From the NCBI RefSeq assembly GCF_003711105.1, contig NZ_CP023865.1:4551001-4615000 (forward strand): DNA of 64,000 nucleotides, written 5' to 3'. Below are positions 21,350-40,818 of this stretch, one piece after another (position 1 is the stretch's first letter; each line of letters starts with the position of its first letter). A program made the translations under genes and the position numbers. This DNA is from Actinoplanes teichomyceticus ATCC 31121. GTDB taxonomy: Bacteria > Actinomycetota > Actinomycetes > Mycobacteriales > Micromonosporaceae. The notes below the pieces were generated by a model. It was not told where the DNA came from and did no database searches. It saw only the letters and a program-made list of their open reading frames with translations.

Positions 21350-23275
21350 TCAGTTCGGCAGCACCAGGATCTGGCCCGCGACGATCCGGTCCGGGTTGGC
21401 GATCACGTCCCGGTTCCGGGCGAAGATCTCCGGCCAGCGGTCACCGTCGCCGAGCTGCGCGCGGGCGATGCCGGTGAGCGTGTCCCCACGCCGGACCGTG
21501 TACAGGCGCGGGATCGGGCCGGTCGGCTGCGCCGGCGGCAACGCCAGGACCTGGCCGGCGAAGATCTGATTCGGGTTGCGGATCACCGAGCGGTTCAGCA
21601 GGTAGATCTCCGGCCAGCGGCTGGCGTTGCCGAGCTGGCTCCTGGCGATGCCGGTGAGCGTGTCGCCGCGCCGGACCGTGTACGTCCGGGGCGGCTGGCC
21701 ACCGGTCAGCACCCCGGCCAGCCGTAGCAGGTCGGCCAGCTCGAACGTGTCCCGCTTGGCGGCCGGCAGGAACGGCCGCCACGCCGGCAGCCGCAGGATC
21801 GAGTCCGCGCTGCGGCGTACCAGCCCGACCAGCACCTCGGCGACCAGGGTGCTGCCCACCGGGCCCAGGCGCGCGCCCCGGTGGAAGTGGTTCGCCTCGG
21901 CGAGGATGTAGAACCACAGCGGGGTACGCGACTCGAACCCGCCCGCCTGCAGCGCGGCGACCTGCTCCGGGCCGCCCGCCGCGGCGAGCAGTTCGTCCTT
22001 GCCGAGCACCGGCAGGTCGAGCAGCTGGGCGACGGCCTGTCCGGTGGGCACCCGCAGCCGGTAACCGCGCAGCAGGTTGCGTACCGGCAGCCGGGCGGCG
22101 TCCGCCGGCGTCTCGGTCACCCCGGTCACCGTGCGCAGGTTGAACAGCGCCCGGTTGCCGGTGGTGGCGACCCGGGTGTCGATCCGGCGCGCCTTGCCGA
22201 CCGCCGGATCGTCACCGATGATGTTCTCCCACTCGATGATCCAGTTCTCCGGCAGCGTCGCGAAGTCGCCGAGCTGCCCGCTGAGCGCGGTGAAGGTGAA
22301 CAGCAGCTCCAGCGTCGCGGGCACGCCGCCCGGACGGAGGTGGAAGTTGACGTTGAAGTTGTACGCCGCGCGCACCATCGTGTGGCCGAACCGGTAGCCG
22401 GCCGCCGCGAACTCCAGCGGCATCCGCAGCGGCGTGGCCAGCGGATCGAACCAGCGGTTGCCGCGGGTGACGACGTCGTCCACGATCTCCGGCTGGGCGA
22501 TCCGCTTGAGGAAGTCGTGCACGACGATGTGCTGATAGTGCTGGCGCAGGATGCGCTGCGCCTCGGTGCCCGAGAATCCCCGCGTGACCAGCGCGTTGTG
22601 CGCCTTGAGGAACGCGACGTGCAGCTGGGCGATGATGGTGTTCTCGTCGTTGCGCGGGTCGCCGGTCAGTGCCGCGCGATCGTGCTCGATGTCGCCGCCG
22701 GCCGGTTCCCGGGGCAGGTCGTTGTCGTCGCCCTTGCCGGGCGGGCGGGCCAACGGCGGCTCGGTGCTGCCGGTCGGGCTGACCCTGCCCACCAGCAGTT
22801 TCGCGGGGTCGGCCGGATCGCGCGGCGCGGGCGCGCCGTAGACGCTGTCCAGGTCCAGGCTGCCGGTGCGCAGATTGCGCAGCGTGCCACGGATCTGTTC
22901 CGGCGGCAACGGGGTCATCGCCGGGTCGAGCAGGTCGCCGATCGCCGCCGAACCGACCTCCAGCGTGATGTCGTGGTCGACGAACTGCCCGAAATAGGTG
23001 TAGGCGGCCGGGATCGGGCTGTCCTCACCCGGCCGGTCCGGGTCGACCATCGTCGCGCCGAGCCGTTTGAGCAGTTGCGGCATGTTCGCCGTCGCGGGCA
23101 GCAGATTCGCCTCGTCCTCCTGCAGCCCGGGGAACAGGAAGTCGAAGCTGTGCGCGTCCACCGGTGGAGTGAGCGCGAATCGTGCCGGCGAGCGCGCGCT
23201 GAATTCCGCGAGGTCACCGGCGGCCCGGTTGATTTCCTGATCGGTGATGACTCGTCCGTGCGGCAGACGTGGCAT
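21350..23275 (-). CDS. Animal-type haem peroxidase with two C-terminal LysM domains
   Basis: A 641-aa protein. Residues 60-510 match the animal haem peroxidase superfamily: distal histidine in GQFVDHDIT (near residue 98), catalytic Arg region GDPRNDENTIIAQLH, and proximal histidine in YRFGHTMV (near 296). Residues 530-580 and 590-641 are two LysM modules, each beginning YTVRRGDTLTGIA and containing RWPEI and a terminal GQ-L-LP. LysM usually binds peptidoglycan or chitin glycans, suggesting a cell-wall-located oxidant, yet no signal peptide is visible at ATG 23275 (ribosome site GGAAGGAAGG), so the export route is unclear. The in-frame upstream extension is not conserved-looking. Confidence 0.88.
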   Translation of the reverse strand: MPRLPHGRVITDQEINRAAGDLAEFSARSPARFALTPPVDAHSFDFLFPGLQEDEANLLPATANMPQLLKRLGATMVDPDRPGEDSPIPAAYTYFGQFVDHDITLEVGSAAIGDLLDPAMTPLPPEQIRGTLRNLRTGSLDLDSVYGAPAPRDPADPAKLLVGRVSPTGSTEPPLARPPGKGDDNDLPREPAGGDIEHDRAALTGDPRNDENTIIAQLHVAFLKAHNALVTRGFSGTEAQRILRQHYQHIVVHDFLKRIAQPEIVDDVVTRGNRWFDPLATPLRMPLEFAAAGYRFGHTMVRAAYNFNVNFHLRPGGVPATLELLFTFTALSGQLGDFATLPENWIIEWENIIGDDPAVGKARRIDTRVATTGNRALFNLRTVTGVTETPADAARLPVRNLLRGYRLRVPTGQAVAQLLDLPVLGKDELLAAAGGPEQVAALQAGGFESRTPLWFYILAEANHFHRGARLGPVGSTLVAEVLVGLVRRSADSILRLPAWRPFLPAAKRDTFELADLLRLAGVLTGGQPPRTYTVRRGDTLTGIARSQLGNASRWPEIYLLNRSVIRNPNQIFAGQVLALPPAQPTGPIPRLYTVRRGDTLTGIARAQLGDGDRWPEIFARNRDVIANPDRIVAGQILVLPN

Positions 23276-23759
23276 GGCCTTCCTTCCCCGTCGAAGTGTG
23301 CGGCCGAGAGAACGCCGGGCGGAGGCGGTCACCGGACCATCCGCATCGACCTGCGCCAATCGGGCCACCATAGGCCGATTCACCCGTCCGGGGGCGGTCG
23401 GATCATGGACAGCCGGCGACGATGGCCGATTCCGATCGCCGACCGGCAGATCGCGATCCCGCACCAGACCTGCAAATGGGGATTGCGGGCGCGGCTCTCC
23501 CGGCGGCGAGAGATGCGGTCACGCAATTGCTCCGTCCCCGGAAACCGCCGGCGCCGCATCCGCCGAGGACTTCGCCCACCGCGGACCGGAATCGCGTTCG
23601 CCGCGAATGCGGAAACGACCGGAAATGCCGGCGGCATCTTTTTCCGCGAGGGAGAAGAATCACATGGCGCCATCCGTACGTGCTCGCCGCACGCGCCGAT
23701 CGGCCGCTGCCGGCGCGCGCCCGCCACCATCGGGGCCCGGCACCGGCTATGTTGCTCGG
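23276..23759. other. 484-bp divergent intergenic region
   Basis: This region separates the peroxidase and SDR genes. It contains no convincing gene. An in-frame ATG at 23664 with GGGAGAAG upstream would extend the SDR by 32 poorly conserved, Arg/Ala-rich residues; the -10 box at 23748 argues for the shorter start. Confidence 0.5.
23748..23759 (+). promoter_or_regulatory. Leaderless -10 box of the SDR gene
   Basis: TATGTT at 23748-23753 followed by exactly 6 nt and ATG 23760, the geometry expected for transcription starting at the A of the start codon. There is no Shine-Dalgarno sequence at this start. Confidence 0.5.

Positions 23760-26630: not shown

Positions 26631-26634
<4 letters not shown>
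25771..26634 (+). CDS. Putative lipoprotein with Ca-binding-like repeat
   Basis: A 287-aa protein. A basic N-terminus is followed by a hydrophobic helix (LIMGLAVLGGAAGC), giving a lipoprotein signal with Cys near residue 35. YLDLDADGDEDAAV resembles an FG-GAP/calcium-loop motif (DxDxDGxxD). The rest has paired cysteines but no known catalytic motif. A start at ATG 25771 or GTG 25783 is possible. The stop (TAG) overlaps the stop of the convergent kinase gene by 4 bp (CTAG), so the two mRNAs are complementary at their ends. Kinase and lipoprotein both place a domain outside the membrane; a functional pair is speculative. Confidence 0.7.
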
Positions 26635-28760
<2,126 letters not shown>

Positions 28761-28973: not shown

Positions 28974-29516
28974 ATGCGCCTCGTGCCCTCGTCCCTGCGC
29001 CGCCGGGGCGGCCTGATCGTGGCCGGCGCCGTCGCGCTGGTCGTGGCGGCCGTCGCCGCGCTGACCCTGAACACCGGCACCGCGGCGGCCACCTGGAAGA
29101 CGCTGGCCGGCACCCCGACCTGCGACTGCGTGCTGCGCGACAGCGCGAGCAACACCTACCGGGCGGTGTTCGGCTATGTCAGCACCGCCTCCTCGGCGGG
29201 CACCATCGCGGCCGGCGACAACAACCGGATCGAACTGATCGGGGGCAGTACCCGGCGGACCACGCACACGGTGACCACCCGTTTCGAGCCGGGCGTCCAC
29301 AAGGGTACGTTCGCCACCGGCTGGATCAGCCGGGACACCACGGTGACCTGGCGGGTCGGCGGCAAGACGGTCGTCGCCGCCTGGACCAAGCCGACCTGCG
29401 GCAAGGATGTCAGCCTGCCGGCCGGCGGCAACGGCACCGGCCCGCTGGCCGCGCTGGTCGTGGCCGGCGCGGTGGCCGCGTTCGTGCTGTGGCGCAAGCG
29501 TCGCAGGGCCGCCTGA
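28974..29516 (+). CDS. Secreted protein with sorting-signal-like C-terminus
   Basis: A 180-aa protein. Residues 1-38 form a signal peptide (RRRGG, long hydrophobic core, AAA). The ectodomain (40-145) is Thr/Gly-rich, beta-predicted, with three cysteines. Its end is tripartite: LPAGGNGTG, a hydrophobic helix (PLAALVVAGAVAAFVLW) and RKRRRAA, the layout of sortase or exosortase substrates, although the motif is not canonical LPXTG or PEP. The next gene begins 3 bp after the stop, so it heads the operon that contains an exosortase-like fusion protein. The inference is that this is the dedicated substrate. No catalytic motif was seen. Confidence 0.8.
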   Translation: MRLVPSSLRRRGGLIVAGAVALVVAAVAALTLNTGTAAATWKTLAGTPTCDCVLRDSASNTYRAVFGYVSTASSAGTIAAGDNNRIELIGGSTRRTTHTVTTRFEPGVHKGTFATGWISRDTTVTWRVGGKTVVAAWTKPTCGKDVSLPAGGNGTGPLAALVVAGAVAAFVLWRKRRRAA

Positions 29517-29519
29517 GCC

Positions 29520-30212
29520 ATGATGATGCGCAGCGTACTCGCGATCGGGGCGCACCCGGACGACATCGAGCTCGGCTGCGGCGGCACCCTGGCCGCGCAC
29601 CGGGCGGCCGGCGACGCGGTGACCATGCTGGTGGTGACCGGCGGGCAGAACGGTCCCGGGCCGGTCGGTGAGCGGCGCGCCGAGGCGGAGACGGCCGCCC
29701 GCAGCCTGGACTGCCTGCTGCTGTGGGGCCGCCTGCAGGACTGCGCGGTGCAGGCCGACGCGGCGACCATCGCGGTGATCGAGGACGCGATCCGGCAGAC
29801 CGAGGCCGATGTGGTGTACGTGCACGCGCCGGACGACTCGCACCAGGACCACCGGGCGGTGGCCGCGGCGACCGTCTCCGCGGCCCGGCACAACCGGCGG
29901 GTGCTGCACTACCGCAGCCCGTCGACCACCCGGTTCGAGCCGTCGGTGTACGTCGACATCTCCGCCCACCTGGACCGCAAGCTGGCCGCGCTGGCCTGTC
30001 ACCGCAGCCAGGTGGCGAGCTCGGCGATGGTCGACCCCGAGGTGGTGGCCGCCTCGGCACGGCACTTCGGCGCGCAGGCGCGGGTCCGGTTCGCCGAGGC
30101 GTTCGTGCCGTCCCGCTTCGTGTGGGATCTGTCGCCGCCGCCTCAGCTGCCGCCGGCTCTGGCCGACATGCCGGTGTACCAGGCCGCGTACCGAAGCCGG
30201 GGGGTGACATGA
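29520..30212 (+). CDS. PIG-L family N-acetylglucosamine-type deacetylase
   Basis: A 230-aa zinc-dependent de-N-acetylase. AIGAHPDDIELGCGGTLAAH carries the AHPDDxE metal and catalytic motif; HAPDDSHQDHRAVAAAT carries the HxxDH zinc histidine. Known members deacetylate GlcNAc in GPI anchors, mycothiol or glycolipids. Here it sits directly before a GT2 enzyme and an exosortase-like fusion and shares an operon with a UDP-GlcNAc 2-epimerase, suggesting deacetylation of an amino-sugar intermediate. Its stop overlaps the next start (ATGA). Confidence 0.9.
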   Translation: MMMRSVLAIGAHPDDIELGCGGTLAAHRAAGDAVTMLVVTGGQNGPGPVGERRAEAETAARSLDCLLLWGRLQDCAVQADAATIAVIEDAIRQTEADVVYVHAPDDSHQDHRAVAAATVSAARHNRRVLHYRSPSTTRFEPSVYVDISAHLDRKLAALACHRSQVASSAMVDPEVVAASARHFGAQARVRFAEAFVPSRFVWDLSPPPQLPPALADMPVYQAAYRSRGVT

Positions 30213-31591
30213 ACGCCGGTGGCCGCCACCGCCCGCGCCGCGGTCCGCGGTCGCGGGAGAGCTACCGGCTCGCCCTGGCCGCGCACGGCGCGGTGTTCGT
30301 CGCGGCGCTGCTGCTGTTCGGCCTCGACCGGACGCTGGGCTGGCTGGCCACCGCCCTGAACCTGGTCTTTCTGATCTTCTTCTTCCGGCACCTCGGTTTC
30401 GCCGTGGCCGCCGCCCGGTGGGCCGAACGGGACCTGAACGCGCCGCTGGTCGGGGTGGAGGACTTCACCCCGACGGTGGCCGTGCTCGTCGCCTGCAAGG
30501 ACGAGGAGCTGGTGGTGGACGGCATGGTGGCGGCGCTGCTGTCGCTCGACTACCCGGCGCACGCGCTGACCGTGGTGGTGGTCGACGACGCCTCCACCGA
30601 CGGCACCGGCGCCCGGCTGGACGCCTGGGCCGCCGCCGACCCGCGCCTGCGGGTGCTGCACCGCGAGCCGGGCGCCGGCGGCGGCAAGTCCGGGGCGCTC
30701 AACGACGCGCTGGCGCTGACCGACTCGGAACTCGCGGTGGTCTTCGACGCCGACCACCAGCCGGAGCCGGACGTGCTGCGCCGCCTGGCCCGGCACTTCC
30801 GGGACCCGCGGGTCGGCGCGGTGATGGGCCGCTGCGTGGTACGCAACGGCGTCGAGTCGTCGCTGGCCTCCACGATCTTCGTCGACTACCTCTCCGGCTA
30901 CCTGGTCAACGAGTACGGCCGGCAGGCGCTGTTCGAGCTGCCCGCGTACGGCGGGGCGAACTGCGCGGTGCGCACCTCGCTGATCCGGGCGCTGGGCGGC
31001 TGGAACCCGGACACCGTCACCGAGGACACCGACCTGACGCTGCGGCTGCTGCTGGACGGTCACCGGGTGCGCTACGACCCGTCGGCGGTCGACTTCGAGG
31101 AGGCGGTGCTGTCCTCGCGGCGCTTCTGGAAGCAGCGCTACCGGTGGGCGCGCGGACACCAGAAGTGCCTGCGCGACTACTGGCGGCCGATCCTGCGGAC
31201 GCCGCACCTGAGCGTGACCGAGAAGGTCGAGACGATCCTGTTCCTGTGGGTGTACCACGTCCCGGTGCTGTGCGGGCTGGGCCTGCTGCTGATCGTGCTG
31301 CACGCGTTCGGCGTCGGGAACTCGTCGGCGATCCAGATGGTGTCGCTGTCCGCGCTGCTGTTCGCCGGGCCGTTCTGCGAGCTGGCGGTGGGTCTGGTGC
31401 TGGGCCGGGTGGAACGGCGCGCGGTGTGGACGCTGGTCGGCTTCATCCCGGCGTTCGGCATGTCGATCATGACGGCCACCAAGGCGTACTTCGAGGGCAT
31501 GGCCGGCACCACGTACACCTGGTCGAAGACGGCCCGCTCCGGCGCGACGTCGGTGGTCGCGGCGCCCCGGCAGCTCGAGCCGGCCGGATGA
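30209..31591 (+). CDS. Membrane GT2 glycosyltransferase, processive-synthase type
   Basis: A 460-aa protein with two N-terminal helices, a GT-A catalytic domain and about three C-terminal helices. Motifs: VVVVDDASTDGTG (nucleotide Asp), VVFDADHQPEPD (DxD), VTEDTDLTLRLLLDGHRV (TED) and KQRYRWARGHQK (QxxRW), as in cellulose, chitin and poly-GlcNAc synthases. It would build or transfer a sugar, possibly GlcNAc or ManNAc given the operon's epimerase, and translocate it through the membrane. ATG 30209 overlaps the upstream stop (ATGA), and its own stop overlaps the next start in the same manner. Confidence 0.9.
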   Translation: MNAGGRHRPRRGPRSRESYRLALAAHGAVFVAALLLFGLDRTLGWLATALNLVFLIFFFRHLGFAVAAARWAERDLNAPLVGVEDFTPTVAVLVACKDEELVVDGMVAALLSLDYPAHALTVVVVDDASTDGTGARLDAWAAADPRLRVLHREPGAGGGKSGALNDALALTDSELAVVFDADHQPEPDVLRRLARHFRDPRVGAVMGRCVVRNGVESSLASTIFVDYLSGYLVNEYGRQALFELPAYGGANCAVRTSLIRALGGWNPDTVTEDTDLTLRLLLDGHRVRYDPSAVDFEEAVLSSRRFWKQRYRWARGHQKCLRDYWRPILRTPHLSVTEKVETILFLWVYHVPVLCGLGLLLIVLHAFGVGNSSAIQMVSLSALLFAGPFCELAVGLVLGRVERRAVWTLVGFIPAFGMSIMTATKAYFEGMAGTTYTWSKTARSGATSVVAAPRQLEPAG

Positions 31592-33594
31592 GCACGCTGA
31601 TCGCCGCGCGGCTGGACCGGACGCTGCACCGGGCGGCCGGTCGCCGGCCCGCCGGCGCGACCGTCCGCCGCCTGCGGCTGGTGATGATCGAGCTGGCCGG
31701 GGCGGTGGCCGGCTGCGTCGCCGGCTACCTGCTGCTGGTCGACCACGCCCGCCGGTTCGAGGTGGCGCTCGCCGCCGAGCTCGTCGACCTGCTCGGGGTG
31801 GACCGGATCTCCGGTGTGCTCGGCGACTCGTTCGTGGTCTTCGGCCCGCGGATGGAGCCGGTCGTCGCCGAGATGACCGGCTCCTGCACCATCCTCAGCA
31901 GCGTCCTGGCGCTGGCCGCGCTCGCCTGCGTGGCGTTGCGGCAGCGGCCCCAGGCGTTGCCCGGCCTGCTCGCCGCCAGCACCTTCGTGCTCGCCGCCAA
32001 CCAGGTCCGCCTGGTGCTGTCCCTGCTGGCCGGCCGCTACCTCGCGGTGGACGCGCTGGTGTTCTTCCACGACTGGATCGGCGCGGCCATCAACTTCGCG
32101 TACACCCTCTTCGGATTGCTCATCATGATCGGACTGACCATGTACGACGCACAGCGCGCCGAGCAGGACCGCTCCGGGCGGCACACCGCCGACCGCCCCG
32201 CCGCCTGGGCCCAGCCCGGCCTGGGCCACCGGGTGCCCGTCGAGGCCGAAACGCGGGCGCCCCGGGTGCGGGTCGCCGCGTTCGTGCACCGCCGGGTGCT
32301 GCCCGAGGCGCTGTCGCGGCGCCTGGCCCGCCGCCGTGAGCAGCGGCGCGTCGACTACCGGGTGGGGCACGAGAACCCGCAGCGGCGCGCCGAGATCGTC
32401 CGCCGGCTGGCCGCCAAGGGCCTGGCCGTGCACACCGCCACGCTGCTCGCGGTCGCCTCCTACGAGACCGACCCGATGGTGCTGGACGCGCTCGCCGACG
32501 CGATCGCCGAACGCCAGTGGGAGCCGCTGCACTCCGCCGACGTGGTCGCCCTGCGCCTGTGGGCCCGCGCCTGGCTGATGCGCGCGCCGCACCGGCCGCG
32601 GCCCACCGGCCGGCTGATCGCCGTGACCGGCGCCGGCGGCCCGGCCGGCGTCGCCGTCATCCACGCCCTGCAGGCGGCCGGCGAGCAGGTGCTCGCGCTG
32701 GACGCCAACCCGGACGCCGTCGGCCTGCGCCTGGCCGCCCGCGCCGCCGTGCTGCCCCGCGCCGACCGGCCCGGATACGCCGACGCCCTGCTCGCCGTGA
32801 TCGCCGAGCACCGCCCGGCGGCCCTGGTCTGCACGGTCGCCGAGGAGTACGCCGCGCTGACGCCGCTCACCGGCGCGCTCGCCGGGCTCGGCGTCCGGAC
32901 CTGGCTGCCCGAGCACGCCGACCTCTGCCTGGACAAGGTCGCGTTCGCCACCACGCTGCACGCCGCCGGGGTGCCGCACCCGGTGACCGCCTGGACCGCC
33001 GAGGGCGCCCGCCGGGTGCCCGGCCCGTGGGTGGTCAAGCCGGCCCGTGGCCGCGGCAGCCGCGACGTCGTGCTCGTCGACGACCCGGGCGAGCTGGCGC
33101 ACGCGCTCGCCACCGTGCCCGGCGCGATCGTGCAGACCCGGCTGAGCGGGCGGGAGTTCACCGCCGACGCGCTGGTCGACCGGGACGGCACGATGGTGGC
33201 CTGCGTGCCGCGGTGGCGCGAGGAGACCCGGGGCGGCATCTCGGTGCGGGGCACCACGTTCGCCTCGCCGGCGGTGACCGAGGTGGTGGCGGCGACCCTG
33301 CGCGCGGTGCGGCACACCGGCCCGGCCAACGTGCAGGGCTTCGTGGCCGACACCGGCGAGGTGACGATCGTCGAGGTGAACCCGCGGTTCTCCGGCGGGC
33401 TGCCGCTGACGCTCGCGGCCGGGGCGGACGTGGTGAACACGTACGTCCGGGGCATCCTGGAGCCGGAGGCGAAGCTGCCTTCCCTCGGCTTCCGCGACGG
33501 CCTGCGGATGACCCGGCACTTCGCCGAGGTGTTCTACCCGGCCACCGAGACCGCGGCCCCGGCCGGGGCGCCCGAGCTGGAGCCGGCCCGGTGA
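31588..33594 (+). CDS. Exosortase-like membrane domain fused to ATP-grasp ligase
   Basis: A 668-aa protein. Residues 30-190 are multi-spanning and carry an exosortase/archaeosortase-type triad: Cys100 in TGSCTILS, Arg141 in AANQVRL, His161 in VFFHDW. The Arg-His distance (20) fits the exosortase pattern N-x-x-R...H. Residues 225-345 are a helical linker. Residues 345-650 are a carbamoyl-phosphate-synthase/PylC-like ATP-grasp: LIAVTGAGGPAGVAV, WVVKPARGRGSRDVV (ATP lysine), SGREFTADALV and EVNPRFSGGLPL (metal-binding Glu/Asn). Exosortases cleave C-terminal sorting signals and transfer the protein to an acceptor; ATP-grasp enzymes form amide-like bonds. I know of no described fusion of the two. 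It is coupled to both neighbours by ATGA and GTGA overlaps. Confidence 0.82.
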   Translation: MSTLIAARLDRTLHRAAGRRPAGATVRRLRLVMIELAGAVAGCVAGYLLLVDHARRFEVALAAELVDLLGVDRISGVLGDSFVVFGPRMEPVVAEMTGSCTILSSVLALAALACVALRQRPQALPGLLAASTFVLAANQVRLVLSLLAGRYLAVDALVFFHDWIGAAINFAYTLFGLLIMIGLTMYDAQRAEQDRSGRHTADRPAAWAQPGLGHRVPVEAETRAPRVRVAAFVHRRVLPEALSRRLARRREQRRVDYRVGHENPQRRAEIVRRLAAKGLAVHTATLLAVASYETDPMVLDALADAIAERQWEPLHSADVVALRLWARAWLMRAPHRPRPTGRLIAVTGAGGPAGVAVIHALQAAGEQVLALDANPDAVGLRLAARAAVLPRADRPGYADALLAVIAEHRPAALVCTVAEEYAALTPLTGALAGLGVRTWLPEHADLCLDKVAFATTLHAAGVPHPVTAWTAEGARRVPGPWVVKPARGRGSRDVVLVDDPGELAHALATVPGAIVQTRLSGREFTADALVDRDGTMVACVPRWREETRGGISVRGTTFASPAVTEVVAATLRAVRHTGPANVQGFVADTGEVTIVEVNPRFSGGLPLTLAAGADVVNTYVRGILEPEAKLPSLGFRDGLRMTRHFAEVFYPATETAAPAGAPELEPAR

Positions 33595-34736
33595 ACCGCC
33601 GGATCCTCGTGCCGTTCGGCACCCGCCCCGAAGTGATCAAGCTGGCCCCGGTCGTGCACGCCCTGCGCGCCACCGGCCACCACGTCACCACCGTGGACAC
33701 CGGCCAGCACCGGGACGCGGCGATGAGCACCGACGTGCAGCGCGCGCTGGGGCTGACCGCCGACGTGCGGCTCACCCCGCCCGCCGGCCCCAGCCTTCTG
33801 GCCGCGCTGCTCAGCGGCGCCACCGAGGTTCTCGCGGCGCACCCGGCCGACGTCGTGCTCGCGCTCGGCGACACCCACACGGTTCCGGCGTACGCGCTCG
33901 CCGCGCGCGGCGCCGGCGTGCCGTTCGCGCACCTGGAGGCCGGGCTGCGCAGCTTCAACCCGCGCAGCCTGGAGGAGGTCAACCGCCGGGTGGCCGCCGC
34001 CACCGCCCAGGTCCACTTCGCGCCGACCGCGCGCGCCGCGGCGTTCCTGGCCGGCGAGGGCGTCCCGGACGAGCGGATCTTCGTGGTCGGCAACCCGGTC
34101 GTCGACGCGCTGCGCGAGCGCGGGATCCGCCCGGCGCCGCCCGCCGGCCGGCACGGTGTGCTGGTCACCGCGCACCGCGCCGCCAACGTCGACGACCCGG
34201 CCCGGCTCGCGCGCCTGGTCCGGGTGGTCGGCCGGCTCGCCGCGATCGGCCCGGTCCGCTTCCCGGTCCACCCGCGCACCCGTGCCCGCCTGACCGAGCA
34301 CGGCCTGCTGGACCGGCTGGCCGCACTGCCCGGCGTGCTCTGCCAGGACCCCCTGGGGTACGACGATCTGCTGCACGTCCTGGCGCACAGCCGCGTCGTG
34401 GTCACCGACTCCGGCGGGCTGCAGGAGGAGGCGGCGTACCTGGGCGTGCCCGTGGTGGTGCTGCGCCGCTCCACGCCGCGCTGGGAGGGCGTCGAGGCGG
34501 GCGCCGCCGTGCTCACCGGCATCGGCTCCGACGACGAGGCCGGCCGGGCGGTCGAGGCCGCGCACCGGCTCAGCGCTCCGCAGTCCCTGGCCCGGACCGC
34601 CCGGCTGCCCTGCCCGTACGGCGACGGCCACACCGGCGCCCGGATCGCCGGGCTGCTCGCCGACCCGGCGATGGACGCGCTGCTGGCCCTGGACGAGCCG
34701 GACTACACCGGCGGGCGGCTGCCGTGGGCGCGGTGA
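33591..34736 (+). CDS. wecB: UDP-N-acetylglucosamine 2-epimerase (non-hydrolysing)
   Basis: A 381-aa protein that interconverts UDP-GlcNAc and UDP-ManNAc. Diagnostic segments: PFGTRPEVIKLAPVV, TGQHRD, ALGDTHTVPAYALAA, HLEAGLRSFNP, VTAHRAANVDDP, TDSGGLQEEAAYLGVPVVVLR and TPRWEGVEAG. Length and motifs fit the bacterial WecB/MnaA group. It probably supplies the donor sugar for the operon's GT2. GTG 33591 overlaps the previous stop (GTGA). Confidence 0.93.
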   Translation: MNRRILVPFGTRPEVIKLAPVVHALRATGHHVTTVDTGQHRDAAMSTDVQRALGLTADVRLTPPAGPSLLAALLSGATEVLAAHPADVVLALGDTHTVPAYALAARGAGVPFAHLEAGLRSFNPRSLEEVNRRVAAATAQVHFAPTARAAAFLAGEGVPDERIFVVGNPVVDALRERGIRPAPPAGRHGVLVTAHRAANVDDPARLARLVRVVGRLAAIGPVRFPVHPRTRARLTEHGLLDRLAALPGVLCQDPLGYDDLLHVLAHSRVVVTDSGGLQEEAAYLGVPVVVLRRSTPRWEGVEAGAAVLTGIGSDDEAGRAVEAAHRLSAPQSLARTARLPCPYGDGHTGARIAGLLADPAMDALLALDEPDYTGGRLPWAR

Positions 34737-35578
34737 CCGCGCTGCGCCGCCCACCGGCCGCCGTCGTCGTCGATCTCGACGACACGCTCTACCCGCAGGC
34801 GGCGTACCTGTACGGCGCGGCCCGGGCGGTGGGCCGCGCCGGCGCCGCCGCCGGCCTGGATCCGTTCCGGCTCGGCCGCGCGGTCCGCCGCCAGCTGATC
34901 GCCGGCTCGGACCGCGGCGGCACCATCGACCGGGCGCTGGCCGCCTACGGCCTGCCACCGGACCGCGCCGGCCGGCTGGTGCCCGCGCTGGTCGCGGCGT
35001 TCACCGCCTACCGGCCGCGGCGCCTGCCGCACTACCCCGGCGTGCCCGAGGCGCTCACCCGGCTGCGCGAACGCTACCGGCTGGTCTGCCTGACCGACGG
35101 CAACCCGGTGATCCAGCGCGCCAAGCTGGCCGCCACCGGGCTGTCCGGCTGGTTCGACGCCGTGGTCATCACCGACGAGCTGGGCGGCCGAGCCGCACGC
35201 AAGCCGGACCCGGGCGGCCTGCGGCACGCCGCCGGGCTGCTCGGCGTCGCGCCGCGGGAGCTCGTCGTGATCGGCGACCGGCCCGGCAAGGACGTGGCGG
35301 TCGCGGTGGCGCTGGGCGCGCGGTCGATCCGGGTCCGCACCGGCGAGTACGCGGCGGCCCCGGACGAGCCCGCGGCCACCGCCGTGGTCGCCGACCTGAC
35401 CGCCGCGGCCGCCCTGCTCCTCTGCGGCCGGGGCGGCCCGGCGCGCTCGCGCTGGGGCGCGGACCGCGGCCGGGGTGCGGATCCGGCGACGCTGGGACCC
35501 GCGCCCCGGGGTGCCGGTCACCACCGAGACCGGCAGCACCGCGGCGATCGGCGTCAGCTGCCGAGGTCCTCCCCGTAG
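34733..35578 (+). CDS. HAD-superfamily hydrolase (phosphatase)
   Basis: A 281-aa protein. VVVDLDDTLYP is the nucleophile motif I, VCLTDGNP motif II, RKPDPGG motif III lysine, and VVIGDRPGKDVAVA motif IV acids. It is expected to be a small-molecule phosphatase, in this operon perhaps for a sugar phosphate. GTG 34733 is chosen because it overlaps the epimerase stop (GTGA), as in the rest of the operon; GTG 34724 is an alternative. The last 50 residues are Arg/Gly-rich without structure and run 25 bp into the convergent PPOX gene, so the true C-terminus may be a read-through tail. Confidence 0.85.
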   Translation: MTALRRPPAAVVVDLDDTLYPQAAYLYGAARAVGRAGAAAGLDPFRLGRAVRRQLIAGSDRGGTIDRALAAYGLPPDRAGRLVPALVAAFTAYRPRRLPHYPGVPEALTRLRERYRLVCLTDGNPVIQRAKLAATGLSGWFDAVVITDELGGRAARKPDPGGLRHAAGLLGVAPRELVVIGDRPGKDVAVAVALGARSIRVRTGEYAAAPDEPAATAVVADLTAAAALLLCGRGGPARSRWGADRGRGADPATLGPAPRGAGHHRDRQHRGDRRQLPRSSP

Positions 35579-36717: not shown

Positions 36718-39700
36718 GTGAGCGACGTCTTCGCTGCGGACGCCGAGGTGGGCCGGGATCTGGCCGCGGTCGACTGGGGGCGCACCCCGGTCGGGTCGCC
36801 GGACGGATGGCCGCAGAGCCTGCGGACCGCGGTCAGCATCCTGCTGTCGTCCCGGTTCCCGATGTGGATGGCCTGGGGTCCGGATCTGACGTTCTTCTGC
36901 AACGACGCGTACCGCCGGGACACGCTGGGCCGTAAGTACCCGTGGGCGCTGGGCCGCTCGGCGCGCGAGGTGTGGGCGGAGATCTGGACCGACATCGGCC
37001 CGCGCATCCGCAACGTGCTCGACACCGGCCACGCCACCTGGGACGAGGGCCTGCTGCTGTTTCTGGAGCGCTCCGGTTACCCGGAGGAGAGCTACCACAC
37101 GTTCTCCTACAGCCCGCTGCGCGACGACGACGGCGCCCTGGTCGGGATGCTCTGCGTGGTCAGCGAGGACACCCACCGGGTGATCGCCGAGCGGCGGATG
37201 GCGACGCTGCGCGACCTGGGATCCGACCCGAGCGTGATCCGCACCGAGCAGCAGACCCTGGCGTTCGCCAACGAGCAGCTGGGACGCAACCGGCGCGACC
37301 TGCCGTTCACGCTGACGTACCTGTTCGACGAGGACGGCGGGGCCCGGCTGCGTGCGGCGTCCGGCATCCCGGCCGGGCACCCGGCCGCTCCCGGGGTGCT
37401 CGGCGGCGACACGGTGTGGCCGGCGGCCGGCCCGGACGGTCCGGAGTCGCAGCTGGTCGACCTGGACGCCACCGGCCTGCCCACCGGGGACTGGCCGGAG
37501 CCGCCCCGGCAGGCGCTGCTGGTGCCGCTGCGGCGGCGAGGCGACGCCCCGTACGGCTTCCTGGTCGCCGCCCTCAACCGCTACCGGCCGGCCGACGAGG
37601 CGTACCGGGGCTTCATCGAGCTGGTTGCCGGTCACGTGGCGGCCGGGATCGCCAGCGCCCGCAGCTATCAGGCGCAGCAGCGGCGCGCCGAGGAGCTGGC
37701 CGAGCTGGACCGGGCCAAGACCACGTTCTTCTCCAACATCAGCCACGAGTTCCGTACCCCGCTCACGCTCATCCTGGGGCCACTGGACGAGCTGCGGTCC
37801 CGCCTCGACGGCGCCGACCCGCAGGTCCGCGACGAGCTGGACGTGATCCACCGCAACGGGCTGCGGCTGGGCAAGCTGGTCAACGCGCTGCTGGACTTCT
37901 CCCGCCTGGAGGCCGGCCGGATGCAGGCCCGCTTCGAGCCGGTCGACCTCTCCGCCGCCACCACCGAGCTGGCCAGCGTGTTCCGGTCCGCCGTGGAACG
38001 CGCCGGGCTGGCGTTCGCGGTGGACTGCCCGCCGCTGCCCGAGCCGGTGCTGGTGGACCGCGGCATGTGGGAGAAGGTGGTGCTCAACCTGCTGAGCAAC
38101 GCGCTGAAGTTCACCTTCGACGGCTCCATCCGGGTGGCGGTGCACGCCGAGGACGGGCACGCGGTCGTCACCGTGGCCGACACCGGGATCGGGGTGGCCG
38201 CCGAGGAGATGCCCCGGCTGTTCGAGCGCTTCCACCGCATCGACAACGCCCGCTCCCGTTCGCACGAGGGCAGTGGCATCGGCCTGGCGATGGTCAAGGA
38301 GCTGGTCGGCCTGCACCACGGCACGGTGGAGGCGGACAGCAGCCCGGGCAAGGGCACCACGTTCACCGTCCGGCTGCCGTTCGGCGCCGCGCACCTGCCG
38401 CCCGGCGCGGTGGCCACGACCGGGTCGCGGGAGGCGCCCGCGGTCTCGGCCACCGCCGAGCCGTTCGTCGAGGAGGCCAACCGCTGGCTGCCCAGCGCCG
38501 CCGACGGCGGGACGCCGCTGGAGCCGAACCCGGCGATCGGCCGGCTCGCCGGGGCCACCGCCGACATCGTGGTGGCCGACGACAACGCCGACATGCGCGA
38601 CTACCTGAGCCGGCTGCTGCGTTCGGCCGGGCACCGGGTCACCGCGGTCGGCGACGGCCGGCAGGCGCTCGACGCGGTCCGGGCCGCCGCCCCGGATCTG
38701 CTGGTCAGCGACGTGATGATGCCGCGCCTGAACGGGCTGGAGCTGCTCGCCGCGCTGCGCGGGGACACCCGCACGGCGGGGATCCCGGTGCTGATGCTGT
38801 CCGCCCGGGCCGGCGAGGAAGCCTCCATCGAAGGGCTGGAGGCGGGCGCCGACGACTACCTGTTCAAGCCGTTCTCGGCGGCCGAACTGCTGGCCCGGGT
38901 CCGCGCCAACGTGGAGCTCGCCCGGCTGCGCAACCACCACGCCCGCTGGCGTACGGCCCTGGTCGACTCGTTGCAGGAGGCGTTCTTCGTCTGCGACGAG
39001 GACGGCGCGGTCGTCGAGATCAACGCCGCGTTCACCGACATGATCGGCTACGGGCCGGAGGGTCTGCCGTACGCGCCGGTGCACCCGTGGTGGCCGGACA
39101 AGCAGGTCGAACCGGAGGCGTTCGCGCAGGTGGCGGCCGCCTTCGACATGCTGATGCAGGACCGGCGGGGCGGCTACACGGTCCCGGTCACCCACCGCGA
39201 CGGGCACCGGCTGTGGGTGGCTGCCGCGTTCAACCGGGTGCGGGACCCGGAGACCGGGCGGCGCGTGGTGGTCGGCACGTTCCGCGACGTCACCGACGAG
39301 CACTACGCGATCCAGCGGGAGACCGCGCTGGCCGCGCTGAGCATGCGCCTGTCCGGGGCGGACCGCCTGGCCGACGCGCTCGCCGGGGCCCTGGACGAGC
39401 TGCGCGGGCTGTGGCAGGCGGGGTACGTGCTGGCCGCGGTCTTCGACGGCGCCGGGCCGCCCGCGCTCAGCGCCACCGAGGCCGGCCCGGGCTGGGACGA
39501 GCTGCCCGGGCAGCGCCGCGAGACGCTGCTCGCCCTGCGCGACACGCCGCTGCTCACCCCGGTCACCGAGCACACCGCCGGGGCCGGCATCGCGCTGGAG
39601 CACCCGGCCGGCACCATGGTGCTCTGGGTCGACCTGGGCAACCGGCGCCCGTTCACCGAGCAGGACCAGACGCTGCTGGCGCTGCTGGCCGGGCATCTCG

Positions 39701-40818
39701 GGCAGGGCCTGCGCCGGGTGCACCAGATCGACCAGCAACGCGAGACCGCCCTGGCCCTGCAGCGGGCGATTCTCGGCCCGGCGCGGCTGCCGGCCGGGTT
39801 CGCGGTGCGCTACGAACCGGCCACCCGGCCGTTGCGGGTCGGTGGCGACTGGTACGACACCGTCCCGCTGCCGGACGGCCGGATCGGGATCGTGGTCGGC
39901 GACTGCGTCGGTCACGGCCTGTCGGCGGCCACCGTGATGGGCCAGCTGCGCTCGGCGTGCCGCGCCCTGCTGCTGCGCGACAGCAGCCCGGCCCGGACGC
40001 TGGCGGCGCTCGACCGGTTCGCCGCGCTGCTGCCCGGCGCCAGTTGCGCGACCGTGTTCTGCGGGGTCCTCGACCCGGCGAACGGTCACCTGCGCTACTC
40101 GGCCGCCGGTCACCCGCCGCCCATCGTCGCGCTCGCCGACGGCGCCACCGCGCTGCTCGACCGGGGCCGGTCCCGGCCGATCGGGATCCGCCCCGACGAG
40201 CCGCGGCACGAGGCCGAGTACGACCTGCCGCCCCGTACCACCCTGATGCTCTACACCGACGGGCTGGTCGAGCGCCGCCGCCGGCCGCTGACCGCCGGGA
40301 TCGAGCAGGCCGCCGCCGCGGTCCGCGCGGGCCGGCGGACACCGATCGACGAGCTGGCCACCGAGGTGATGGAGCGGCTCGCCCCGGCCGGCGGGTACGA
40401 CGACGACGTGGCCCTGCTGCTGTACCGCCAGCCCGGCCCGCTGGAGATCGAGTTCCCGGCGGACGCCGCCCGGCTCTCCGGGATCCGCAGCGCCCTGCGC
40501 GGCTGGCTGGAGCGCTGCGGGGTGGACCCGGGCACCACCCAGAACGTGCTGGTCGCCGCCGGCGAGGCGTGCGCCAACGCCATCGAGCACGGCCACCGCG
40601 ACCTGCGCGGCGGGCTGATCCGGTTGCGTGCCGCCGCGACCGCGGACAACGTGCGCCTGGTGATCGTCGACAGCGGGCGCTGGAAGGTTCCCCGGCCGGC
40701 GGACAATCCGCACCGCGGGCGCGGCATCATGCTGATGCGGGCCTTCATGGGCGAGGTCTCCATCACCACCGGCCAGACCGGGACCATCATCGACATGCAG
40801 ACGAGGATCGCGTCATGA
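36718..40818 (+). CDS. Hybrid sensor kinase with SpoIIE phosphatase and RsbW-like kinase domains
   Basis: A 1,366-aa soluble signalling protein. Approximate order: PAS-like 20-150; GAF-like 170-320; HisKA with FFSNISHEFRTPL (His near 343); HATPase 440-560 (VLNLLSNALKFT, DTGIGV, GSGIGLAMVKEL); receiver 620-735 (VVADDNADMRDYL, Asp in LLVSDVMMP near 664, K in FKPFSAAEL); PAS 745-860; GAF 870-1010; PP2C/SpoIIE phosphatase 1020-1235 (VGGDWYDTVPL, VVGDCVGHGLSAA); HATPase_c2 1245-1366 (ACANAIEHGH, GRGIMLMRAFMGEV). It joins two-component phosphorelay with partner-switching control of a sigma factor. GTG 36718 follows AGGAGA. The STAS gene follows with an ATGA overlap. Confidence 0.92.
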   Translation: MSDVFAADAEVGRDLAAVDWGRTPVGSPDGWPQSLRTAVSILLSSRFPMWMAWGPDLTFFCNDAYRRDTLGRKYPWALGRSAREVWAEIWTDIGPRIRNVLDTGHATWDEGLLLFLERSGYPEESYHTFSYSPLRDDDGALVGMLCVVSEDTHRVIAERRMATLRDLGSDPSVIRTEQQTLAFANEQLGRNRRDLPFTLTYLFDEDGGARLRAASGIPAGHPAAPGVLGGDTVWPAAGPDGPESQLVDLDATGLPTGDWPEPPRQALLVPLRRRGDAPYGFLVAALNRYRPADEAYRGFIELVAGHVAAGIASARSYQAQQRRAEELAELDRAKTTFFSNISHEFRTPLTLILGPLDELRSRLDGADPQVRDELDVIHRNGLRLGKLVNALLDFSRLEAGRMQARFEPVDLSAATTELASVFRSAVERAGLAFAVDCPPLPEPVLVDRGMWEKVVLNLLSNALKFTFDGSIRVAVHAEDGHAVVTVADTGIGVAAEEMPRLFERFHRIDNARSRSHEGSGIGLAMVKELVGLHHGTVEADSSPGKGTTFTVRLPFGAAHLPPGAVATTGSREAPAVSATAEPFVEEANRWLPSAADGGTPLEPNPAIGRLAGATADIVVADDNADMRDYLSRLLRSAGHRVTAVGDGRQALDAVRAAAPDLLVSDVMMPRLNGLELLAALRGDTRTAGIPVLMLSARAGEEASIEGLEAGADDYLFKPFSAAELLARVRANVELARLRNHHARWRTALVDSLQEAFFVCDEDGAVVEINAAFTDMIGYGPEGLPYAPVHPWWPDKQVEPEAFAQVAAAFDMLMQDRRGGYTVPVTHRDGHRLWVAAAFNRVRDPETGRRVVVGTFRDVTDEHYAIQRETALAALSMRLSGADRLADALAGALDELRGLWQAGYVLAAVFDGAGPPALSATEAGPGWDELPGQRRETLLALRDTPLLTPVTEHTAGAGIALEHPAGTMVLWVDLGNRRPFTEQDQTLLALLAGHLGQGLRRVHQIDQQRETALALQRAILGPARLPAGFAVRYEPATRPLRVGGDWYDTVPLPDGRIGIVVGDCVGHGLSAATVMGQLRSACRALLLRDSSPARTLAALDRFAALLPGASCATVFCGVLDPANGHLRYSAAGHPPPIVALADGATALLDRGRSRPIGIRPDEPRHEAEYDLPPRTTLMLYTDGLVERRRRPLTAGIEQAAAAVRAGRRTPIDELATEVMERLAPAGGYDDDVALLLYRQPGPLEIEFPADAARLSGIRSALRGWLERCGVDPGTTQNVLVAAGEACANAIEHGHRDLRGGLIRLRAAATADNVRLVIVDSGRWKVPRPADNPHRGRGIMLMRAFMGEVSITTGQTGTIIDMQTRIAS

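Follow-up and report, generated by a model that had tools for sequence, protein, structure and literature searches.

Introduction

Exosortases and archaeosortases (TIGR04178), among them EpsH of the PEP-CTERM system, XrtS, XrtR and XrtP, have in common with the system described here a signature match, a Cys / NxxR / HxxxG set of residues and a paired tripartite C-terminal tail. The parts of the 2006 PEP-CTERM survey available to us report no example in high-GC Gram-positive bacteria (PMC1569441). Here we describe a candidate system of this kind from the soil bacterium Actinoplanes teichomyceticus ATCC 31121, namely an operon within a 64,000-nucleotide stretch (NZ_CP023865.1, positions 4,551,001 to 4,615,000; hereafter the window) in which one gene encodes an exosortase domain and an ATP-grasp domain in a single protein, P0001.

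Work on related anchoring systems bears on what such an enzyme might attach its substrate to, and it is cited here for the portions of the papers available to us. In type IX systems, cargo proteins carry 2-N-seryl or 2-N-glycyl amino-sugars bound through an amide to their C termini, and the linking sugar is completed by the putative deacetylase VimE and the amino-acid transferase VimA (PMC7468200). In those portions, the authors suggest a similar product for exosortase loci that include VimA-like proteins, and they describe the molecule that receives proteins from exosortases as unidentified (PMC7468200). Modification by archaeosortase A depends on PssA and probably on PssD, which in Methanosarcina are encoded next to artA, and its acceptor is an amine lipid (PMC7157517).

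One polypeptide with an exosortase domain and an ATP-grasp domain

The window protein encoded at 31588-33594 joins an exosortase domain and an ATP-grasp domain in one polypeptide, with the following parts.

31588..33594, forward strand: exosortase::ATP-grasp fusion P0001, 668 amino acids (profile matches, model)
31657..32148, forward strand: exosortase domain, residues 24-187 (TIGR04178 over residues 97-180; conservation; helices)
31885-31887, 32008-32010 and 32068-32070, forward strand: Cys100, Arg141 and His161, within the exosortase domain
32149..32607, forward strand: linker and helical segment, residues 188-340 (conserved AEQDRSGRHTA...RQWEP...LRLWA pattern)
32608..33540, forward strand: ATP-grasp domain, residues 341-651 (PF15632, PF02655; fold of 2pn1)

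A first-pass annotation of the window had proposed an exosortase-like domain fused to an ATP-grasp ligase, and profile searches bear this out within a single open reading frame: the N-terminal membrane part scores 24.9 bits against TIGR04178, the exosortase/archaeosortase signature (cut-off 23), and the C-terminal part exceeds the cut-offs of the ATP-grasp profiles PF15632 and PF02655. The signature is also matched at E<=0.01 by 27 of 28 aligned relatives. The exosortase-type residues named in that annotation are conserved as well; across 57 proteins the cysteine is kept in 53 of 56, the arginine in 57 of 57 and the histidine in 56 of 57, and in the ATP-grasp domain K450, K484, E596, N598 and R600 are conserved in at least 90% of 53 aligned proteins. 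The structural model (mean predicted local distance difference test score, pLDDT, 85.2; predicted template modelling score, pTM, 0.59) comprises four long helices, a helical segment and an ATP-grasp domain whose closest fold is 2pn1; its low-confidence stretch falls within residues 188-225. The helix ends, together with the charges beside them, are consistent with a topology that would place Cys/Arg/His outside and the ATP-grasp domain in the cytosol; of five places, two give a clear charge signal and three a neutral one. The cytoplasmic linker (residues 188-340) has near-invariant AEQDRSGRHTA and RQWEP..LRLWA stretches, which are kept in the homologues P0055-P0057, proteins with exosortase domain and linker and without ATP-grasp domain.

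Compared with known exosortases, P0001 carries a fused ATP-grasp domain, is paired with an LPAxGNG tail motif and has one dedicated substrate instead of many. EpsH has at least eight transmembrane helices, whereas P0001 has four predicted long helices; of the EpsH motifs in the available part of the same paper, NxxR and HxxxG fit, but CxG fails, as the cysteine is followed by Thr or Ser with no Gly at +2 (PMC1569441). No named exosortase subfamily cut-off is reached by P0001 among the 25 matches listed; for XrtS (NF033767) it scores 13.9 bits against a cut-off of 145, and 17 of 28 relatives match that model at E<=0.01, judged by E value only. A PDB sequence search with the exosortase part gave no match up to E 10. 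The ATP-grasp domain shares its fold and conserved residues with 2pn1-like and PRK12767 proteins, but P0001 stays under the cut-offs of all five models listed, and its ATP-grasp domain is tethered to a membrane exosortase. The first-pass annotation knew of no described fusion, and our search agrees: among Creative Commons-licensed PubMed Central (PMC) papers none joins exosortase and ATP-grasp, PMC11631085 having both words in its reference list only, and paper searches for XrtP, XrtG, XrtR and XrtS listed nothing on this system. The novelty lies in the new signal of the exosortase, its dedicated substrate and the ligase fused to it; the superfamily itself is known.

Fused and split forms of the system

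Both domains are present in 53 of 55 named loci, fused in 22 and split into adjacent genes in 31, the latter mostly from Geodermatophilaceae. The fused count includes L081, which is uncertain because part of its linker matches in a different frame; the comparison leaves out L107 and L108, as their contigs end before the ATP-grasp domain. In a tree of two further operon proteins, a glycosyltransferase family 2 (GT2) enzyme and WecB, the fused/split label needs four changes, three of them forced by starred branches (54 rows, a quick method, some long branches, L081 included), and 29 of the 32 Geodermatophilaceae loci are split. One protein from Actinoplanes sp. KI2 (P0013, locus L056) combines exosortase, ATP-grasp and WecB in 1075 amino acids. 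The presence of the fusion in many named species rules out a sequencing error or chance open reading frame. The survey found the fusion to be recurrent and ruled it out as the essential novelty, since 31 of the 53 loci have two adjacent genes instead. Because their joining recurs, the data suggest that exosortase and ligase serve one process.

A candidate substrate with a sorting-type tail

The operon begins with a gene for a small, apparently secreted protein.

28974..29516, forward strand: candidate exosortase substrate, 180 amino acids (conserved at the start of the operon in family loci that have the fusion)
29415..29513, forward strand: sorting-type tail, consisting of LPAGGNG (residues 148-154), a hydrophobic helix and an arginine-rich end to residue 180 (conservation; tail profile A3)

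This protein has a signal-peptide-like N terminus, a two-cysteine beta-strand ectodomain and a C-terminal tail in the arrangement of LPXTG and PEP-CTERM signals. Its model consists of beta strands (mean pLDDT 73.8), and a Foldseek search with that model gave no match at E<=0.001. There are 35 related proteins at E<=0.01, and the family also occurs in a record named Actinoplanes missouriensis (P0067). An iterated profile located the substrate in 50 of 57 distinct loci (initially counted as 51 of 58, L050 and L083 being one place); among the seven loci without a match, the contigs of L073, L092, L107 and L108 stop within the operon. In the Geodermatophilaceae loci that have it, the gene sits downstream of the HAD gene, in several of them twice. 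Mean identity between Micromonosporaceae-type and Geodermatophilaceae sequences is 78% over the seven residues of the motif, 30% over the ectodomain and 34% over the helix, in a comparison that covered 40 of 53 sequences (13 were missed by the trimming pattern) and excluded one fragment and seven other-group sequences. Klenkia and Blastococcus litoris have a tail variant ending in ANG, and, to judge from its sequence, the tail changes in more distant systems, since the metagenome-assembled loci L071, L072 and L100 carry SSLPVDPLGLS in place of the motif and L083 and L109 have other tails. A substrate relative in Klenkia marina (G599, L180:1987-3150; the same gene in L076) has an F5/8 type C domain, predicted to bind galactose, before the usual ectodomain, and ends in an LPALANG tail.

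The genome of A. teichomyceticus contains one exosortase-signature match. Of 67 genus genomes, 16 have the exosortase domain and the identical 16 have the substrate, so that the search for co-occurring C-terminal sorting signals envisaged in the first-pass annotation found its counterpart; classical sortases occur in all 67. A tail-only profile gave 17 matches in these genomes at E<=1.4e-11, all within the 16 that have the exosortase: one strong match per genome and two in G574, where the second copy lies on another contig. The best match in the other 51 reached 2.4e-4 (G575; L178), in a frame unlike a secreted protein by eye. Across the 33 genomes of the named loci, 30 had a match at E<=1.1e-13 or better, and weak matches in G622 (1.5e-5), G599 (0.0068) and G610 (0.013) were to tails of the ANG variant. 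Extra substrate copies lie away from the operon in G613, G618, G606, G601, G598 and G625; all share the same kind of ectodomain by eye, and the tail was not found on an unrelated ectodomain in the named-locus genomes. We rejected the possibility of many substrates per genome on these tail-profile matches among the candidates scored; in the A. teichomyceticus genome the DNA pattern of the motif occurs at two places, one of them the substrate gene and the other inside a coding sequence resembling recG and a DAK-type gene by eye. Further afield, the exosortase domain matches in 14 of 150 family genomes, three of them weakly and with no substrate match (G006, G010, G084), and in 4 of 394 class genomes, that of A. 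teichomyceticus included; the exosortase scan of the class, the substrate scan of the family and both tail-profile scans each scored a subset of the first-look candidates per genome. No operon is present at the loci of G006, G084 and G206; L026 (G010) has a rearranged set of WecB, PIG-L, HAD, GT2, a weak exosortase match and a separate ATP-grasp gene, with a negative substrate scan. Taken at sequence level, a pairing of exosortase and sorting signal around a dedicated substrate is very probable.

A conserved six-gene operon

Substrate, PIG-L, GT2, fusion, WecB and HAD genes run in the same direction, with ends that overlap or almost touch.

29520..30212, forward strand: PIG-L family deacetylase (PF02585, 85.6 bits, cut-off 28.2)
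30209..31591, forward strand: membrane GT2 glycosyltransferase (PF13632, 87.9 bits, cut-off 27)
33591..34736, forward strand: WecB-type UDP-GlcNAc 2-epimerase (TIGR00236, 252.4 bits, cut-off 210.15)
34724..35578, forward strand: HAD-superfamily hydrolase (PF00702, 72.7 bits, cut-off 26.4)

Narrower models fit less closely. The best NCBIfam match of the PIG-L gene is BshB1 (103.2 bits, under the cut-off of 182.5), and the GT2 gene has sub-cut-off matches to PgaC (131.6 bits), an XrtP-associated glycosyltransferase (106.3) and an XrtG-associated one (46.3). Among the family loci bearing the fusion, 17 of 19 have all six genes, the exceptions being L041, which is cut by a contig end, and L022. 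All 55 named loci have GT2, and 53 have each of PIG-L, WecB and HAD; PIG-L is missing in L073 and L092, and WecB and HAD in L107 and L108, four loci whose contigs break off within the operon. A protein kinase gene (26631-28760, reverse strand) adjoins the substrate gene and is transcribed away from the operon.

Two other genes of the window have unusual domain combinations. One (21350-23464, reverse strand) encodes an animal-type haem peroxidase followed by two LysM domains; the other (36718-40818, forward strand) encodes a 1366-residue hybrid with histidine kinase, receiver, PAS, GAF and SpoIIE phosphatase domains and a second ATPase domain.

Proposed mechanism

The family match with its conserved residues, the dedicated substrate with its conserved tail, the conserved gene set and the recurrent domain joining are computational observations; upon them we build a scheme in which cleavage, thioester, aminoacyl-sugar acceptor, order of steps and role of the HAD enzyme are inferred. 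There is about an even chance, in our judgement, that the operon encodes a self-contained protein-anchoring system, which would cleave the substrate and transfer it to the amine of a glycolipid or glycan built by the operon enzymes. The substrate would be exported and then retained in the membrane through its C-terminal helix, and the exosortase domain, with Cys100, Arg141 and His161 at the outer face, would cut at or near LPAxGNG, keep the cleaved substrate as a thioester and pass it to the amine of the operon-made product. To build this product, WecB would supply a manno-configured amino-sugar nucleotide, the PIG-L enzyme would strip its N-acetyl group, and, in the cytosol, the ATP-grasp domain would load the amine thus freed with an amino acid or another carboxylate; GT2 may then assemble and export it, with the HAD enzyme trimming or supplying a phosphorylated intermediate.

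By analogy, the acceptor may be, with a probability we put near one half, an amino-sugar that bears an aminoacyl group and is carried by a lipid or glycan, with the substrate joined to its amine. This idea draws on the type IX linking sugar, on archaeosortase A and on bacillithiol and mycothiol synthesis. In the latter, sugar transfer and PIG-L deacetylation are followed by ligation of an amino acid to the amine, yielding aminoacyl amino-sugars; the ligases are unrelated to the one here, and the product there is a soluble thiol and no protein anchor. The Wbp/Vim pathway likewise has a deacetylase and an amino-acid-attaching enzyme beside a protein-anchoring enzyme, and the operon 2-epimerase would fit the manno-configured sugar of Tannerella (PMC7468200, in the part available). 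The operon, however, has a PIG-L and not a CE4 deacetylase and an ATP-grasp enzyme and not a VimA-like transferase, its genes belong to families other than WbpA/B/D/E, VimA and VimE (a comparison of the operon only; wbp/vim were not searched genome-wide), and unlike that pathway it is without genes for oxidised sugars, so the likeness is by analogy only. With archaeosortase A and PssA/PssD the common element is acceptor-making enzymes working with a sorting enzyme, but the acceptor there is an amine lipid (PMC7157517, in the part available), whereas a sugar-based one would be used here.

The first-pass annotation had suggested a new form of protein anchoring in which the ligase activates the ligand. 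The anchoring role fits, because the same operon encodes a secreted protein with a sorting-type C-terminal tail; direct hand-over from ligase to exosortase is unlikely on the predicted topology. Since the ligase depends on cytosolic ATP and the exosortase residues are predicted to face outwards, it more likely makes an acceptor that is exported. The fusion itself may fix assembly or stoichiometry. More tentatively, and short of an even chance, P0001 could be a two-faced enzyme whose cytosolic ATP-grasp half makes an aminoacyl amino-sugar and whose own outer exosortase half joins the exported sugar to the dedicated substrate.

Weighing the alternatives

Several observations weigh against an anchoring system of this kind. 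Cys100 is replaced by Ala or Ser in the fusions P0040, P0043 and P0051, the last of which has also lost His161. The predicted topology puts the ATP-grasp and exosortase sites on different sides of the membrane, and the ATP-grasp fold matches include the L-amino acid ligase 3vot, PylC and also carboxylases, so that the substrate is not readable from the fold; nor does the operon contain a FemAB/VimA-like transferase. The substrate scan gave nothing at L026, L051 and L097, where no contig end is nearby, and the tail profile in the genus scored 110 candidates per genome. Because the substrate and exosortase genes are adjacent, some of their co-occurrence is explained by joint gain and loss, but linkage leaves unexplained that the tail is the best-conserved stretch and that sortase-bearing genomes without the exosortase are without the substrate. 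Finally, L022 (genome G029) has substrate and fusion only, the other four operon genes being missing. This locus is probably a decaying copy of the system, judging by its sequence, since a search for GT2 elsewhere in G029 gave no close copy (best 36% identity) and the matching fusion P0032 of Actinoplanes philippinensis has lost most of its linker.

L022 can also be read in favour of an ordinary acceptor, such as a phospholipid amine or cell-wall precursor, with PIG-L, GT2, WecB, HAD and ATP-grasp making a separate surface polysaccharide that the substrate merely binds; it retains substrate and fusion without GT2, GT2 resembles the poly-GlcNAc synthases (PgaC, under cut-off), and the Klenkia marina relative has its predicted galactose-binding domain. 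Against this stand the repeated joining of ATP-grasp to the exosortase itself and the presence of the sugar genes beside the exosortase in all named loci that no contig end interrupts, and we regard this explanation as unlikely, if deserving of attention. A decidedly improbable reading makes the exosortase a release protease only, with nothing attached and the neighbouring enzymes modifying glycans elsewhere: transpeptidation by this protein is only putative and the two activities can sit on separate polypeptides, yet the split genes remain adjacent in the operon, and archaeosortase A substrates carry lipid (PMC7157517, in the part available).

It is more improbable still that a classical sortase treats the LPAGGNG tail as an LPXTG variant while the exosortase has another substrate. 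The A. teichomyceticus genome has three sortase-family matches, database records name some substrate relatives LPXTG proteins (P0060, P0070, P0080), and 18 of the 35 relatives match TIGR01167 (LPXTG) weakly at E<=1, the best at 0.0058, of which some may pass the cut-off. The window substrate, however, scores 12.1 bits against that model, under its cut-off of 15.9, and reaches no sorting-domain cut-off, and the threonine of LPXTG is replaced. It is the distribution that makes a classical sortase unlikely, with sortases throughout the genus genomes and the substrate confined to those with the exosortase.

Implications

With the system described here, high-GC Gram-positive bacteria gain an exosortase with its own signal. 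A single operon holds the few candidate genes for making the acceptor, including one fused to the exosortase, and the substrate is a single small protein, which makes the acceptor of an exosortase testable in this system. If our reading of the acceptor is true, the operon would provide a Gram-positive analogue of the Wbp/Vim linking sugar. Should P0001 indeed be a two-faced enzyme, an exosortase would have a genetically complete acceptor pathway for the first time, and this would be the second linking-sugar system, built independently of the known one.

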